Below, piece after piece: positions 824 to 8,289 of a DNA stretch of 39,319 nt. Both the position numbers and the translations under genes were made by a program. The notes under the pieces were generated by a model. That model was given only the letters and a program-made list of their open reading frames with translations, ran no database searches and was not told the DNA's origin. Each line of letters opens with the position of its first letter. The stretch's first letter is position 1. The stretch is from a virus: the IMG/VR virus record IMGVR_UViG_3300032271_001160, positions 1-39,319 of that record. One strand, 5' to 3'.

Positions 824-1168
824 TTGGCAGAACTACACTGGACGCAGATCCGCGCGTTGGTAAAGGCGGGCAAGATCATCCGCACGCCGTCAGGCTCACG
901 AGCCAAGCGAGTCTACGGCGCGTTCCCGAGCAAGCCCGGCCAACCACCTCACAAACAAGTTGGCGTACTGCGTGGCTCCGTGACGTACGAGGTCGCCTAC
1001 TCTGCCAACGGAACATTGATTGCCAGAGTGGGAACTAACATCCTGTATGGCAAATTTTTGGAGTTGGGCACTCGCAAGATGAAAGCCCGGCCCTGGCTCA
1101 AGCGAGCACTCAACGAAAAACGCGGCGACATCCAAGCCATCATGAATCGACCGATGAAAATTAAGTGA
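824..1168 (+). CDS. HK97 gp10-like tail-joining protein, C-terminal half
   Basis: 114 residues. The motif FPSKPGQPPHKQVGVLRGSVTYEV, quoted only as PSKPGQPPHKQ and LRGSV here, followed by VGTNILYGKFLELGTRKMKARP in shortened form (YGKFLELGTRKM), is the C-terminal signature of HK97 gp10-type proteins, which act at the head-tail joint. The family's usual N-terminal helix region is absent here and sits in the preceding ORF. The likely start is TTG at 824 behind AGGA at 811-814. The frame is the same as the upstream ORF and is separated only by TAA at 779-781, so independent re-initiation or stop readthrough are both possible. Confidence 0.75.
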   Translation: MAELHWTQIRALVKAGKIIRTPSGSRAKRVYGAFPSKPGQPPHKQVGVLRGSVTYEVAYSANGTLIARVGTNILYGKFLELGTRKMKARPWLKRALNEKRGDIQAIMNRPMKIK

Positions 1169-1601: not shown

Positions 1602-1612
1602 TAGGACCACCC

Positions 1613-1807
1613 ATGGAAAATTCATTGATGCGGTTTTTTGAATACAAGCACTTACCACACCACCTGCAACTCGTATCGCAACTGGTTTATGAATTGGCCG
1701 AACAGATGGACAACTTGCCAGAATCGGCAGAAAAAACAGCAGGAATGCGCAAGTTGTTGGAAGCAAAGGACTGTTTTGTTCGTGCCTCATTACCTTTGCC
1801 CGAATAA
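1613..1807 (+). CDS. Acb2/Tad1-like small helical protein (candidate anti-defence)
   Basis: 64 residues. The layout FEYKHLPHHLQ, helix with YELAEQ, then LP, then AEKTAGMRKLLEAKD and a final VRASL resembles the compact two-helix hairpin family of Acb2/Tad1-type phage proteins, where Acb2 sequesters cyclic nucleotides from CBASS and Tad1 sequesters the Thoeris signal. Conservation of the EKTAxxRKLLEAKDxxVRA block is the main evidence, recalled from memory. ATG at 1613 follows AGGACC at 1604; an internal ATG at 1631 is also possible. It sits among structural genes, as such small passengers often do. The ligand, if any, is unknown. Confidence 0.5.
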   Translation: MENSLMRFFEYKHLPHHLQLVSQLVYELAEQMDNLPESAEKTAGMRKLLEAKDCFVRASLPLPE

Positions 1808-2188: not shown

Positions 2189-3592
2189 GTGGCCTACGTT
2201 GACTTTTACATGGACGCATCAACTGGAAACGACCTTAACAGCGGATCGTCGTCCGGTTCGCCTGTTATAGTTTCAGGATGCAGCGCAAACAATGTGGCGG
2301 TTTCCGGACCCACATACGTTTGCAGAATAACGGCTGGTTCAGGCACACCCTTCAGCGGTGTTACAGCTGGCCAATGGGCAAGCGTATACCTGTCGTCTGG
2401 CGGGTATACCGTAACAAGTTATATCAGCCAGATTTATCAAGTGAATGGTGGAGGTTCGTCCATTGACCTGTACTACGAGAGTTCTACTCCTCCGAATTGT
2501 TTTGGAAGTGGAGATTTGAGCGGTGCTGGAAATCCCGGATTTACTGGGGTGGCTGGTGCTGTTACTGCGCGAATCGGCGGTCCATGGGCATCTTTGAATA
2601 TTACCAGACTATCAGCCGCAGGATCATACGCAGGCGGAGCAGTAGGTGGAACTTATTATACGTCAGCATTCCTATTTTTGAATGTGCGGGTTAATGTAAA
2701 ATCGGGAACATATTCAAACAGTTCTCAGCTGACTTTACCTAGCGGCAGCAACATAAGGGGAATTGCGGGTGCATCCGTTCGCCCTATATGCTGGCGAGGA
2801 TACGCGACATCGCCTGGAGATTTGGACAATGCCGCCAACCCTGGCACGCATCCCGTATTTTCATTTAGCAGTACGGCGAATCTGATCATCCCAAGCTACA
2901 CACGATTAGAAAATATCGATATCACGACAACGGGAACCGCGAATCCTCTAATACCTGTGACTGAGTTAGGCGTAATGATGACTCGTTGTCGGGTCACGGC
3001 GACCAACTCGGCGATTACGATCTCTGGAACTGCTCCAGGCTTTAATGCGTGGGCGTGCTATTTTACTACTACGTCAACAACAGTTGCCTTAGTCAACTGT
3101 AACACCAATAACAATCAGCCGACATTTAATCAGTGCGTGTTTCAAGGTGGTCTATATAACGTAAATATGGCTTACAACGGCAGTTTCAATGAATGCCTGT
3201 TTAGAAACTCGTCTTCGCATCTGGTGTATTGCACTCAAATTGGAATGATATCTCAGTTCTACAGATGTACGTTCTATAACAGCGGAGCATCGTCTGATGC
3301 CATCCATTTGAGCGGAATAAATGCTCAGTATCTTACAGTGGCTTATTGTATTTTTGCCAATATTTCACGTTACGCAATAAACGTAACGGACACGGCTTTT
3401 GTGGGATGTCGGATCATAGGTCCAGACTACTACAGTATCACAAGCGGCCAGCTCAACGGGGTGTATGAGAGCTACCAGCACGCCGCGATCACCGAAAGCG
3501 CAAGCCCGTTCACCAGTGCCAGCACCAACGACTTCACACTGGTCAGCACTTCCACGGCCGTGACGCAAACCTTTGTTTTCGAGATGCCGTAA
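2189..3592 (+). CDS. Beta-helix tail spike / adhesin-like protein
   Basis: 467 residues starting at GTG 2189, three bases after the previous stop, with AAGAGGTG upstream. The N-terminus YVDFYMDASTGNDLNSGSSSGSP resembles (in the DASTGND-NSG pattern) the opening of parallel beta-helix proteins of the pectate-lyase/right-handed beta-helix type. Later residues show regularly spaced short strands with Asn, Cys and aromatic ladders (for example CRVTATNSAITISG, YNVNMAYNGSFNECLF), the usual beta-helix pattern. It probably binds or processes the host surface. The middle, about 2,250-3,420, is visibly more A+T-rich with A/T-ending codons than neighbours, which suggests recent acquisition. No catalytic residues could be assigned. 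Confidence 0.65.
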   Translation: MAYVDFYMDASTGNDLNSGSSSGSPVIVSGCSANNVAVSGPTYVCRITAGSGTPFSGVTAGQWASVYLSSGGYTVTSYISQIYQVNGGGSSIDLYYESSTPPNCFGSGDLSGAGNPGFTGVAGAVTARIGGPWASLNITRLSAAGSYAGGAVGGTYYTSAFLFLNVRVNVKSGTYSNSSQLTLPSGSNIRGIAGASVRPICWRGYATSPGDLDNAANPGTHPVFSFSSTANLIIPSYTRLENIDITTTGTANPLIPVTELGVMMTRCRVTATNSAITISGTAPGFNAWACYFTTTSTTVALVNCNTNNNQPTFNQCVFQGGLYNVNMAYNGSFNECLFRNSSSHLVYCTQIGMISQFYRCTFYNSGASSDAIHLSGINAQYLTVAYCIFANISRYAINVTDTAFVGCRIIGPDYYSITSGQLNGVYESYQHAAITESASPFTSASTNDFTLVSTSTAVTQTFVFEMP

Positions 3593-5098
3593 GTGGCAAC
3601 GCTCACCAGCTACCTTACACCGGGGCCATTTCAGCCGGGCAGCAGTACCGACCGCCGCACCACGTATCGCGCACCTGGGCCGCTCCAGCCTCAGCTCGTC
3701 ACCAGCGTCACCTACAACGTCACCGGCTCGGGTGGGCTTACCCTGGGAGGTACGGCGACAGCTAGCCTGGCGTACTCAGTCACCGGCTCTGGTGGCCTGA
3801 CACTGGGAGGCACCGCGACCAGCTCGGCCGCGTACAGCATCACCGGGTCGGGTGGCCTGGTACTGGGCGGGACGGTCTCAACCGCTCCAGCCTTCAGCGT
3901 GGTCGGCTCGGGTGGACTCACGCTTTCCGGCTCTGGCAGCATCTCGAGCGCGTACACGATCACCGCCAACGGTGGCTTAACGTTGGCTGGCACCGCGACC
4001 AGCTCGGCCAGCTACACGATCACTGCCAACGGTGGCTTGACGCTCGGCGGCTCGGCAACATCAAGACTGGCATTCAACGTGACCGCCTCCGGCGGGCTCA
4101 CGTTAGGTGGTTCGGCAACGAGCGTGCTGGCGTTTAGCGTGGTGGCCAGTGGTGGCCTGACGTTGGCAGGCTCGGCAACCGTCGCACTGGTCACCCCGGA
4201 AGACCTTTATGAATCGTTGGTGCTGACGTGTTACGGATCACCAACGCTCACCAGCCTGTTTGGCCGTATTGGCTGGTTGTGGATTGAGGAAGCCCCAGAC
4301 GGTGAGCAGTTTCCCTACGCGGTGCTTTCGCAACCTGACAGCGATCTATCGTTTGAAACTTTCAGCAACGATGGCACAGAACCAGCGATCGAATCGGCCA
4401 CGTACCAGATCAGCATTTTCAGCCAGGACCGCCAGTTAAACCGCACGATCTCGGCCGCGATCAACACGTTGCTAGACTCGGCCGCACTCAACCACAACGA
4501 CGGGTACCTGATGGGCCTGCGTATTGAGTCGCAAACCGATTTGCTTGACCCCGATCGCGGGCCGCAAGGTGTGGACGTGTGGCAGCGAGTGGTCAGGCTC
4601 GACGTACGCGACGGACACAACCAGACGGTGGTTACCGCGATTTACACGCCAACGCCAGCCGCAACCGACCTTGCCGACGCATTGATTGCCATGCTCGCCA
4701 GTGACAGCACGTTGGCAGGTTCGGACTATTTCGGCCGGTCAGATTGGCTCTGGATTCAGGAAGCACCAGACGGGCAAGCCCTACCCTATGCGGTGTTGAT
4801 GCAAAAGGAAAGCAAACGACACCAGGAAAGCAACGCCAACGACGGCACGCGGCCTGTAATCGAAGACTCAACCTACGAGCTCCACGTCTTTGCATCCTCT
4901 CGTGCGATCTGCCGGACGTTGGGCGAACGAATCGGCTCGTTGGTAGACGGGGCAGCGATCACGTTTGGTGACGGCTACCCGATGTATTTGAGACGACAGA
5001 GCGACACGGACACCCTCGACGACGACCGTTCCCGGCTCGGTGCCGACGTATGGCGCAGAGTCGTTACCCTCACGGCCATCACCGGCCACACGGAGTGA
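3593..5098 (+). CDS. Repeat protein with duplicated tail-terminator-like domain
   Basis: 501 residues starting at GTG 3593 directly after the preceding TAA. Residues 39-198 are eight tandem 20-residue units of the form SxGGLTLGGTAT. Residues ~203-343 and ~359-501 are two copies of one domain: each has an SDYFGR/TSLFGR-type start, WLWIxEAPDG, PYAV, NDGT, an Rx2-helix, DGY, and VWxRVV. This domain resembles DUF3168-type tail-completion (tail terminator) proteins, which cap the tail tube at the head-proximal end, and the gene lies one gene before the tube protein, as expected. Fusion of two copies and a glycine-rich repeat leader is unusual. Confidence 0.6.
   Translation: MATLTSYLTPGPFQPGSSTDRRTTYRAPGPLQPQLVTSVTYNVTGSGGLTLGGTATASLAYSVTGSGGLTLGGTATSSAAYSITGSGGLVLGGTVSTAPAFSVVGSGGLTLSGSGSISSAYTITANGGLTLAGTATSSASYTITANGGLTLGGSATSRLAFNVTASGGLTLGGSATSVLAFSVVASGGLTLAGSATVALVTPEDLYESLVLTCYGSPTLTSLFGRIGWLWIEEAPDGEQFPYAVLSQPDSDLSFETFSNDGTEPAIESATYQISIFSQDRQLNRTISAAINTLLDSAALNHNDGYLMGLRIESQTDLLDPDRGPQGVDVWQRVVRLDVRDGHNQTVVTAIYTPTPAATDLADALIAMLASDSTLAGSDYFGRSDWLWIQEAPDGQALPYAVLMQKESKRHQESNANDGTRPVIEDSTYELHVFASSRAICRTLGERIGSLVDGAAITFGDGYPMYLRRQSDTDTLDDDRSRLGADVWRRVVTLTAITGHTE
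3707..4186 (+). repeat. Eight tandem 60-bp repeats inside a tail gene
   Basis: Eight in-frame units of 60 bp, each encoding about 20 residues with the core GGLTL. Copies differ at third positions and at several residues, so they are old or under selection rather than freshly expanded. They could change number by recombination and so change the length of a surface-exposed rod. Confidence 0.85.
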
Positions 5099-5668: not shown

Positions 5669-6100
5669 ATGGCCAAACAAAATTTGACAGGCAAGGCCGG
5701 ATATTTCAAGACGGGCGGCAGTGGCGGCGCGAAAATGAATATCACCAAGTGGTCTGCATCCACTGAGGTGAAGATGGCCGACACTACCGACAGTGCCGAC
5801 TTCGACGCAACAACCGGCCTGATCTGGAACACGCAACTACCCGCGTCTGCAAAATTAAGCATTGACGTTGAAGGCAACTACGACGTCAACGGTACGCAAG
5901 CACCGCTCATTTCCGCCTTACTCAATGGTGCGTCACCGTTGGTGGTTGCCGAGCTCGGGTTGACCGCCTCGCTGGTCTACGGCTACGGATCGTTCAACGT
6001 CACAAACTTCAAGCCCGACTCGCCCGTTGAAGACACGGTGACGTTTACCGCCACCCTGGTCAGCAACGGCAAGTGGAACCAGGGAGTTAGCGCCCCATAA
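5669..6100 (+). CDS. Major tail tube protein (putative)
   Basis: 143 residues. The pattern of a short N-terminal arm (GKAGYFKTGGSGG), a beta sandwich with EVKMADTTDSADFDATTG, and the closing VEDTVTFTATLVSNGKW is what tail tube proteins show, the last strand being the inner-tube strand. It is immediately followed by the two-frame tail chaperone genes and the tape measure, the conserved siphophage order. ATG at 5669 follows GAAAGGGG at 5651. It overlaps the next gene by one base. Confidence 0.7.
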   Translation: MAKQNLTGKAGYFKTGGSGGAKMNITKWSASTEVKMADTTDSADFDATTGLIWNTQLPASAKLSIDVEGNYDVNGTQAPLISALLNGASPLVVAELGLTASLVYGYGSFNVTNFKPDSPVEDTVTFTATLVSNGKWNQGVSAP

Positions 6101-6561: not shown

Positions 6562-6809
6562 AACGGTTCACGCCTGGCCGCTCGTCCATAGATTGGTGGA
6601 CGCTGTACCACAACCTCTTGTCTGGCGAGTTCCGACCGTGGACCCCGGACCAGATTGGCAAACTCACGCCAACGCAACTCAACGCCATGGGCCACGCTAA
6701 ACCGCCCGCACCCAACGCGATTACCACGGCCGAACAATACGAGGCCATGTTGGCACGCCGAGAACGCGAACGTCAACATTGGGAGATGATGCGTGTTCAA
6801 ACTCGCTGA
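6558..6809 (+). CDS. Tail assembly chaperone, gpT-like second frame
   Basis: 83 residues if started at GTG 6558, which overlaps the TGA of the gpG-like gene. The motif WWTLYHNLLSGEFRPWTPDQIGKLT, recognisable from RPWTPDQIGKLTPTQL, is typical of the second-frame chaperone domain that binds the tape measure. It can be made alone from GTG or as an extension of the gpG-like product by -1 slippage. The C-terminal part is charged (RRERERQHWEMM). Its end overlaps the tape measure gene by 17 bases. Confidence 0.65.
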   Translation: MKRFTPGRSSIDWWTLYHNLLSGEFRPWTPDQIGKLTPTQLNAMGHAKPPAPNAITTAEQYEAMLARRERERQHWEMMRVQTR

Positions 6810-8289
6810 GTTGTTTGTACAGATCGGTGCCGATGACAGGCAATTGAAAAAGGGTCTAAGCGACGTTCACGCCATGCTGGGTGGCGCAGCTACCAAGCTC
6901 GCCGCGTTGGCGGGCGGCATCGGTGCGGGTGCGTTCTTTTACAAAGCGGTACAGGGTGCCAGCAACCTACAGGAAACGCTTTCCAAGGTTGGCGTGGTGT
7001 TTGGCCAGTCTGCCAGTGAAGTTGAAAAAATGGCCAGCCAGATGGCCAAAGATTTCGGCATGCCCAAAAACGAGATGCTAGACGCAGCATCCATCTTTGG
7101 CCTGATGGCGCAAGGTGCGGGCCTGGCTCAAGACGCCTCCGCAGGGTTTTCAAACCAGATGACCAAACTGGCAGCCGACGCAGCCAGCTTTTATAACGTG
7201 CCGATTACCGACGCACTCCAGAAGATCCGCTCTGGTTTGTCCGGTGAAGCCGAACCGCTACGCGCGTTTGGCGTGTTTCTCAGTGAAGCAGCAATGCAAG
7301 CCAAGGCTGCCGAAATGGGAATCGGTGGCCTGCATGGTAAATTGAACGAGGGAGAAAAGATCCTCGTTCGTCAGCAGCTTATCACCGAGGGGCTGGCCAA
7401 AGCTCAAGGTGACCTTGCACGCACATCGCAAGGCACAGCGAACCAGCAACGCAAACTCATGGGCGACCTTACCAACGGTATGGCCGAGTTTGGCGCAGCA
7501 GTCATGCCGATCTGGAATGGCGTGCTTGATGCGGCGGTGTCGGCGCTCAGTGGAATCAATGGCTGGTTGACCGAGAGCAAGGACGGCATCACAACGTGGG
7601 CCAGTACAATTGGCGGCTACCTGGCGGCGGCTGGCGTGCTGTTCAGGAACTGGGATATCGCAGTTCAGATCACAGCGATTTCGTTTGGCGAGAAGATGAT
7701 CAACATGGAGGAAATGGTTTCCTGGTTTGTGGACTCTGCCACCCAGTATGCCACCTGGTTTGCCAACAACTGGTACAACGTGATCTATGATGCATTGAAT
7801 GCAGTTTACACAGCATTCCAAAACATTTTCACTAACATCGTTAATCTTGCTCAGGCATCTTACAATTACATCACCAACCCGGCGGGCGGGTTTAATTTTC
7901 AGTTCACTGGCCTGCTCGATGGTTTCAAATCTACCATGGAGCAACTGCCAGAAATTGCCAAGCCACACCTCACCAGCTTGCAAAACCAGATCGACGAGCT
8001 CACAACCAAGATGGGCGATGCAGAAGTTGCCCGCGTCGAGGGTGCAACCGCGTTGGCAGCGAGTGCGGCGACCGGCGCAGTGGCCCGCGCCAGTGCAGTA
8101 GCCACACCAGGCGGCGGCAAGGAAACCAAGTCCACTACGATGGGCCTGGAAGAGTTTGCCAAGTCCCTGCAAGCTGGCGTCTTTGGTGACAAGACGGCTC
8201 AAGAATCGTTGGCAGCACAGAAAGCCATTGCAGCGAACACAGAAAAAATGGCCAAACAGAATCCACCTCCAGCCGTGGCGGTTGCATAA
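6793..8289 (+). CDS. Tape measure protein
   Basis: 498 residues, starting at GTG 6793 after GGGAGATGA. The protein begins with a FxQIGADDRQLKKGL pattern, continues with Gly/Ala-rich helices and contains the block LSKVGVVFGQSASEVEKMA and DALQKIRSGLSGEAEPLRAFG (in part: SGLSGEAEPLRAFGV), the hallmark of phage tape measure proteins. A hydrophobic stretch near residues 25-45 and another around 270-290 fit a protein ejected with DNA. The length implies a short siphovirus tail, roughly 70-80 nm by the usual 0.15 nm per residue rule. Confidence 0.92.
   Translation: MFKLAELFVQIGADDRQLKKGLSDVHAMLGGAATKLAALAGGIGAGAFFYKAVQGASNLQETLSKVGVVFGQSASEVEKMASQMAKDFGMPKNEMLDAASIFGLMAQGAGLAQDASAGFSNQMTKLAADAASFYNVPITDALQKIRSGLSGEAEPLRAFGVFLSEAAMQAKAAEMGIGGLHGKLNEGEKILVRQQLITEGLAKAQGDLARTSQGTANQQRKLMGDLTNGMAEFGAAVMPIWNGVLDAAVSALSGINGWLTESKDGITTWASTIGGYLAAAGVLFRNWDIAVQITAISFGEKMINMEEMVSWFVDSATQYATWFANNWYNVIYDALNAVYTAFQNIFTNIVNLAQASYNYITNPAGGFNFQFTGLLDGFKSTMEQLPEIAKPHLTSLQNQIDELTTKMGDAEVARVEGATALAASAATGAVARASAVATPGGGKETKSTTMGLEEFAKSLQAGVFGDKTAQESLAAQKAIAANTEKMAKQNPPPAVAVA

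Follow-up and report, generated by a model that had tools for sequence, protein, structure and literature searches.

The closest described counterparts of the small phage protein examined here are the Acb2 and Tad1 proteins, after which the Pfam family Acb2_Tad1_hairpin (PF24729; curated cut-off of 27 bits) is named. Acb2 forms a hexamer to which cyclic di- and trinucleotides bind. As described in PMC12043709, the Acb2 protomer comprises a short N-terminal helix and two long antiparallel helices, and in Tad1 an N-terminal four-stranded beta-sheet precedes the hairpin. For the Acb2 protein of phage T4, the substitution Y8A is described as causing a loss of cyclic-dinucleotide binding (PMC12657218; PMC12657230) and T68M as lowering affinity (PMC12657230), while Phe82 is described as stacking on the ligand (PMC12657218). 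Members of PF24729 are split over two protein groups, phrog_717 (T4, PaP2, B8b) and phrog_1454 (Halcyone, Bernal13, SpeedDemon). T4 Vs.4 scores 71 bits with the Pfam model, and the actinophage/Paenibacillus-type class also consists of members (Halcyone, 86 bits; SpeedDemon, 77 bits; Bernal13, 75 bits); the latter class is referred to here as Acb2-type and the proteins of PaP2 and T4 as classical Acb2.

The window, i.e., the whole stretch of DNA that was analyzed, is a 39,319-base virus record from a tailed phage that encodes a terminase, a portal protein, an HK97-type capsid protein, RecT, and a D5-type primase/helicase. On its plus strand, an ORF running from ATG to TAA encodes 64 residues, MENSLMRFFEYKHLPHHLQLVSQLVYELAEQMDNLPESAEKTAGMRKLLEAKDCFVRASLPLPE, just as an earlier sequence-only reading of this DNA had stated, and the C-terminal end that was quoted there as EKTAxxRKLLEAKDxxVRA fits the actual end, ...AEKTAGMRKLLEAKDCFVRASLPLPE. 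A gap of 11 bases separates the gene from the end of the preceding ORF, and its GC content is 44%, compared to 57% for the window and 53-64% for most neighbors. The protein matches phrog_1761 (3.6e-25) and phrog_5120 (7.1e-21), both of which are annotated as "unknown function", and given these matches and hundreds of relatives the ORF is a real, widely conserved gene and not a chance reading frame. Searches of Pfam, NCBIfam, and, with the single sequence, the PDB returned nothing significant. The coordinates of the gene, of its predicted helices and aligned pocket codons, and of nearby structural genes are collected in Table 1.

Table 1. Features of the hairpin gene and its surroundings, in window coordinates.
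Feature	Positions	Strand	Basis
Neck1-like	824-1168		phrog_5, 2.5e-13
AGGA, likely ribosome-binding site	1603..1606	+	Direct sequence reading; six bases 5' of ATG
64-residue hairpin protein gene	1613..1807	+	ORF, PHROG matches, AlphaFold2 model
Predicted short N-terminal helix, codons of residues 6-9	1628..1639	+	AlphaFold2
Codon of Tyr11, aligned with T4 Acb2 Tyr8	1643..1645	+	Joint alignment
Predicted helix, codons of residues 16-33	1658..1711	+	AlphaFold2
Codon of Ser22, aligned with T4 Lys23	1676..1678	+	Joint alignment
Predicted helix, codons of residues 39-58, containing conserved RKLLEAKDCFVRA	1727..1786	+	AlphaFold2, conservation
Codon of Arg46, aligned with T4 Thr68	1748..1750	+	Joint alignment
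Tail completion/terminator	3593-5098		Pfam/PHROG matches
Tail tube	5669-6100		Pfam/PHROG matches
Tape measure	6793-8289		Pfam/PHROG matches

Several genes around the hairpin gene have unusual features of their own. Positions 329-1168 form a single reading frame in which an in-frame TAA at 779-781 parts an N-terminal segment (329-781), with a long Lys/Arg-rich stretch, from the Neck1-like segment; this may represent a connector gene that has been split or interrupted. In the 501-residue product of 3593-5098, a GSGGLTLGG-type repeat of 60 nt (20 residues) occurs at least seven times at the N-terminus and is followed by two Tail_completion_gp17 stretches (3.1e-18); judging from its sequence, the protein joins a repeat domain to a tail-completion domain present in duplicate. 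Near the hairpin gene, positions 2189-3592 encode a 467-residue protein of lower GC content (48%), in which DUF5123 is matched below threshold toward the C-terminus; it is possibly a tail fiber module that was separately acquired.

Relatives of the protein, which together constitute the phrog_1761/phrog_5120 family, were found in 431 of 460 pattern stretches from IMG/VR, in at least 584 of 600 by an alignment-based pattern, and in 195 of 251 stretches from GTDB genomes. A total of 369 of 50,697 phage records contained a relative at E<=1, and 318 of these matches cover at least 80% of the query; hosts of these phages include Vibrio, Mycobacterium, Erwinia, Acinetobacter, Brevibacterium, and Gordonia, among others. 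Judging from their titles, the 80 GTDB matches listed include Proteobacteria, Actinobacteria, Firmicutes, Chloroflexi, Cyanobacteria, Planctomycetes, Verrucomicrobia, Acidobacteria, Myxobacteria, Bdellovibrionaceae, and Peregrinibacteria. The family consensus reads KYFxYxHLPxHLQxVSKPxxELAxxMxxxLPDGxEKSAGLRKLLEAKDCFVRAxL, in which conservation at positions 44-58 is inflated because RKLLEAKD, AKDCFVRA, and similar peptides served as search bait. The family alignment and HMM used below (A1) has 76 rows, including 10 phage rows obtained by tblastn without peptide bait; the further alignments A5 and A6 were reduced for redundancy, A5 from a possible 81 rows to 66 and A6 from a possible 80 to 40. 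A literature search returned, within the library covered, no paper on the phrog_1761/phrog_5120 family, and a preprint by Hadary on the functional diversity of sponge proteins (doi 10.1101/2025.08.24.671296) may already cover this branch.

The sequence-only reading had proposed an Acb2/Tad1-like sponge for cyclic nucleotides, and sequence profiles bear on this identity from two sides. PF24729 matched neither the protein (hmmscan) nor any place in its whole record, and the protein is therefore not a listed member of the Pfam family. Only 10 of the 76 family members matched the model, all weakly (best 0.0086), and the unrelated model Occludin_ELL was matched by 20 of the 76 at E<=1 (best 0.0016). 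Over 12 further records, PF24729 identified T4 Vs.4 and two weak places, neither of which is at the hairpin gene. On the other side, phrog_1454 was matched by 47 of the 76 family members at E<=0.01 (best 3.7e-5), and Bernal13 gp1 matched phrog_1761 at 8.1e-5. Enrichment was examined in 27,980 ORFs from 288 loci (191 family, 85 Acb2-type, and 27,704 others), with classes assigned by regular expressions and overlapping loci (e.g., L046 and L108) included. At E<=10, the family HMM (A1) recovered each of the 191 family ORFs and 81 of the 85 ORFs of the Acb2-type class, 15 of the latter at E<=0.01. It also matched 13 unrelated ORFs, a count that stands at 13 because one match classed as "other" (L094) is a family member. 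With the Acb2-type HMM (A6), all 85 of its own members were recovered from the same ORFs, as were 136 of the 191 ORFs of the family, eight of them at E<=0.01; among the 27,704 others there were 13 matches. The classical Acb2 HMM (A2) reached 78 of the 85 ORFs of the Acb2-type class and not a single one of the 191 in the family, indicating that the Acb2-type class is the only bridge between the family and classical Acb2. A direct profile comparison of the family with classical Acb2 (PaP2, T4; A2) yielded a probability of 0.3 and no similarity.

Direct comparison of the family (A1) with the Acb2-type class (A3) by hhalign gave a probability of 82 and a score of 32, as compared to 10.1 for the reversed profile and at most 16.8 when the columns were shuffled 200 times. 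Against a larger Acb2-type profile the values were 88.6 and 35, with the best of five real decoy families scoring 14.1; the two accepted branches of PF24729 (A2 and A3) gave 91. When compared to the PDB, the Acb2-type profile (A3) reaches Tad1 at approximately 5e-4 and 9ptq at 1.2e-6; for the family profile (A1), Tad1 was not among the matches at E<=10 and 9ptq was matched with an E-value of 1.3. Profile homology to the wider Acb2/Tad1 hairpin superfamily was found in both directions and above controls, and the best reading of these comparisons is that the family forms a divergent branch, sister to the Acb2/Tad1 hairpin proteins and linked to them by remote, reciprocal homology. The profile search suggested along with the original proposal supports it in part: the Pfam model went unmatched, and the family HMM and hhalign provided the link to Acb2-type hairpins. 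A chance similarity among helical Glu/Lys-rich sequences that are unrelated to Acb2/Tad1 might be suspected given that unrelated helical Pfam models (Occludin_ELL, L27) match comparably weakly, but such an explanation is very improbable and, on these profile data, strongly disfavored by the enrichment for one family, against 27,704 other ORFs, in HMM searches run both ways, by the hhalign shuffle and decoy controls, and by the gapless agreement of LPxGxEKSxxxxKLxEA with both PF24729 members and 9ptq. Two family members in Acinetobacter phages (H148 in Ab1656-2 and H149 in Acba_4) are annotated as "occludin homology domain protein", a name probably derived from a weak match to helical sequence.

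Structure prediction with AlphaFold2 (66 sequences) bore out the helical character noted in the sequence-only reading and yielded a confident model (mean pLDDT 93.5, pTM 0.78) with three helices (Table 1) and no strand. In this model, the protein is predicted to share the layout of the Acb2 protomer, in which a short first helix is followed by two long ones that run antiparallel. The same layout was obtained for a control, the true Acb2-type protein L129, whose model has helices at residues 3-8, 18-39, and 44-67. Foldseek searches of the PDB gave nothing better than an E-value of 0.8 for the model and, likewise, a best E-value of 0.85 for the true PF24729 control, for which T4 Vs.4 was the top match and also headed the structural comparison (Z 6.8). 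The structural comparison of the model itself was headed by two designed proteins (Z 6.9 and 6.8); 9ptq ranked eighth (Z 5.0, 2.0 A over 50 residues) with a Z tied with those of unrelated rows, and its 24% identity was the highest in the listed rows. The Acb2 structures 8h2j, 8ixz, and 7uq2 were absent from the VIA list for the model, an absence of little weight because the Foldseek search with the control was also without a significant match. Among predicted viral proteins (BFVD), ranks 1-6 were relatives (37-50% identity), rank 7 was an "Acb2/Tad1 hairpin domain-containing" protein (E 0.01; 65 columns at 38% identity), and another five proteins so named occupied places among ranks 9-29 (E 0.5-3.7). 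For so small a hairpin, fold scores of this kind are supportive and not decisive. The best BFVD match, A0A6G6XYP8, comes from an Ochrobactrum phage, has 122 residues, shares 42% identity with the model protein, and carries the annotation "anti-TRAP domain-containing"; it is a possible further fusion of this type of hairpin.

In its own genome, the gene does lie among structural genes, as had been observed, in company with the Neck1-like, tail completion, tail tube, and tape measure genes; however, many relatives elsewhere have no such neighborhood. This setting raises the question of whether the family comprises small virion or assembly proteins, e.g., connector or tail accessory helices, which share the hairpin shape with Acb2 by chance. 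The position of the window gene between connector and tail genes would agree with such a role, as would members located between head-tail connector genes (Gordonia phage DumpsterDude) and between terminase genes (Vibrio phage martha). Moreover, the best PDB match of the A1 profile is Gp22 of phage P1 (8jaj; E 0.0036), a tail protein that is taken here to be the tail sheath, and a match to an unrelated structural protein family had been named in advance as evidence against the Acb2/Tad1 assignment. However, the match spans approximately 46 of 529 residues (residues 426-471) and falls outside the RKLLEAKDCFVRA signature, and similarity along the protein was not found. Among other relatives, one in an Acinetobacter phage lies between portal/head genes and the capsid gene, one in a podovirus (Autographiviridae) lies in the early region well upstream of the RNA polymerase gene, and others are found by thymidylate synthase and tRNAs, near a DNA methyltransferase, near topoisomerase in a T4-like phage, in a jumbo phage, and by a Tet-like J-binding protein. 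A random, uncurated sample of 145 of 272 neighboring ORFs, chosen by length and distance, matched 154 PHROGs, none of which occurred in more than five; these included endolysins, spanins, terminase, adaptors, and primosomal and replication proteins. The position of the hairpin gene is thus not conserved but scattered and moron-like, and such free variation between phages is the behavior of an accessory gene. Known Acb2 genes have the same mixed setting and also adjoin structural genes, with PaP2 p26 next to the capsid gene and that of RcapMu44 upstream of a head-tail adaptor. A virion or assembly role was weighed and kept as an alternative, and is considered quite unlikely.

A second small domain, crAss001_48 (PF21825), which defines a small phage family of unknown function, was encountered in some of the same records. 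It forms a C-terminal domain in members L058, L035, L064, and L065; a crAss001_48-like domain was scored with PF21825 in these four and in L089 (L089:5750-6189) and was recognized by eye in L059, and T4 carries one at 167755-167931. As a regular partner of the hairpin it was rejected: of 71 records, six contained PF21825, and in four of these (L035, L064, L065, and L089) it was fused or adjacent to the hairpin.

The putative ligand pocket was compared in a joint alignment of the 76 family rows (A1) with 51 Acb2-type and classical rows, of which 44 came from A6 and A3 (the first A3 row being omitted as a duplicate) and 7 from A2. The position of T4 Tyr8 is aromatic (Y/F/W) in 75 of the 76 family members (Tyr in 59, Phe in 14, Trp in 2, and His in 1). 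At the position of T4 Lys23, a residue that presumably has a role in ligand binding, a basic residue is conserved in A2, A6, and A3 (Lys/Arg in 51 of 51 rows), whereas Ser is found in all 76 family rows; this register is based on a nearly gapless match to the Acb2-type class from helix 1 to helix 2, and the protein in the window is one residue shorter before the turn than that alignment. The position of T4 Thr68 is Thr in 48 of the 51 rows and Arg in 76 of 76 family members. T4 Phe82 aligns with Leu60, a position at which most Acb2-type rows also differ from T4, in having Ala. The 10 phage rows obtained without bait likewise have Ser22 and Arg46. A broader set of 156 sequences, biased in part by the bait, has Arg at position 46 throughout and Ser at position 22 in 154. 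In these alignments the aromatic residue is kept, and the basic and hydroxyl residues appear to have changed places between the two helices of the hairpin in this family (Lys/Thr to Ser/Arg).

The same substitutions could be read as the mark of an Acb2 hairpin homolog that no longer binds a ligand and has taken on a new role, for example as a binder of host or phage proteins (an early regulator or an anti-defense adaptor). Invariant Ser and Arg at two pocket positions would fit such a protein, some members are fused to or adjoin a crAss001_48 domain, and the RKLLEAKDCFVRA helix is conserved far above what a hairpin core needs, with the qualification that several such peptides were search bait. 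Nonetheless, the aromatic residue on which Acb2 binding depends is retained in all but one of the 76 members, and the conserved residues include several that are polar or charged and would fit a ligand site equally well, and a loss of binding is considered rather unlikely.

The best single hypothesis, for which confidence is somewhat better than even, is instead that the family is a sister branch of Acb2/Tad1 acting as a candidate immune-signal sponge. Like Acb2, the minimal helical-hairpin protein would most likely form a small oligomer, which would bind and hold an immune signal of nucleotide type (cyclic ADP-ribose or a cyclic oligonucleotide), such that a host defense like CBASS or Thoeris stays untriggered; its ligand preference would most likely differ from that of classical Acb2. 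In short, the gene product is probably a candidate sponge that would act as an oligomer and have an altered specificity for immune nucleotide signals. A bolder proposal, put forward tentatively and with confidence somewhat short of even, is that this is an unrecognized branch that ranks among the most widespread of the Acb2/Tad1 sponges, spanning some ten or more phyla, and that, with the aromatic residue kept and Lys/Thr replaced by Ser/Arg, it captures a signal that classical Acb2 does not. If a sponge function is true, hundreds of phages and prophages carry an overlooked anti-signaling gene under the label "hypothetical protein", as do the two Acinetobacter phage records labeled "occludin homology domain protein", and the changed pocket gives a clear prediction on signal specificity.

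With respect to the named systems, the Acb2/Tad1-like identity first proposed stands in its reciprocal remote homology to PF24729 members and in the Acb2 layout predicted by AlphaFold2; it does not extend to the PF24729 cut-off, which was missed, to the beta-sheet of Tad1, or to two pocket positions that are invariantly replaced. Tad1 (7uav, 8kbe) ends in a C-terminal pair of helices that Pfam, going by the name, places in the same family, but its N-terminal domain has no counterpart in a protein of 64 residues modeled without a strand. Classical Acb2, represented by PaP2 p26 (8h2j) and T4 Vs.4 (7uq2), has the same described helix layout as the model and has in common with the family T4 Tyr8 and an RA near the end of helix 2, while the family has neither the long loop that joins the helices in PaP2 and T4 nor the basic and Thr pocket residues. 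The Acb2 homolog 43 bound to 3'cADPR (9ptq) is likewise a short hairpin with the core LPEGREKSxxxxKLEEA, and has Lys and Thr where the family has Ser22 and Arg46. Closest are the Acb2-type proteins (phrog_1454; PF24729), such as gp54 of Paenibacillus phage Halcyone and gp1 of Mycobacterium phage Bernal13. These differ from the family in an N-terminal YH-P-GQPEKY in place of the shorter YxHLPxHLQxVSKP, in R26 and T51 in place of S22 and R46, and in MWANAxIAR in place of DCFVRAxL; they share with it reciprocal profile matches, the same predicted helix layout, an aligned Tyr11, and a gapless core that reads LPxSREKSxAxTxLEEA in the Acb2-type class and LPDGxEKSAGLRKLLEA in the family.
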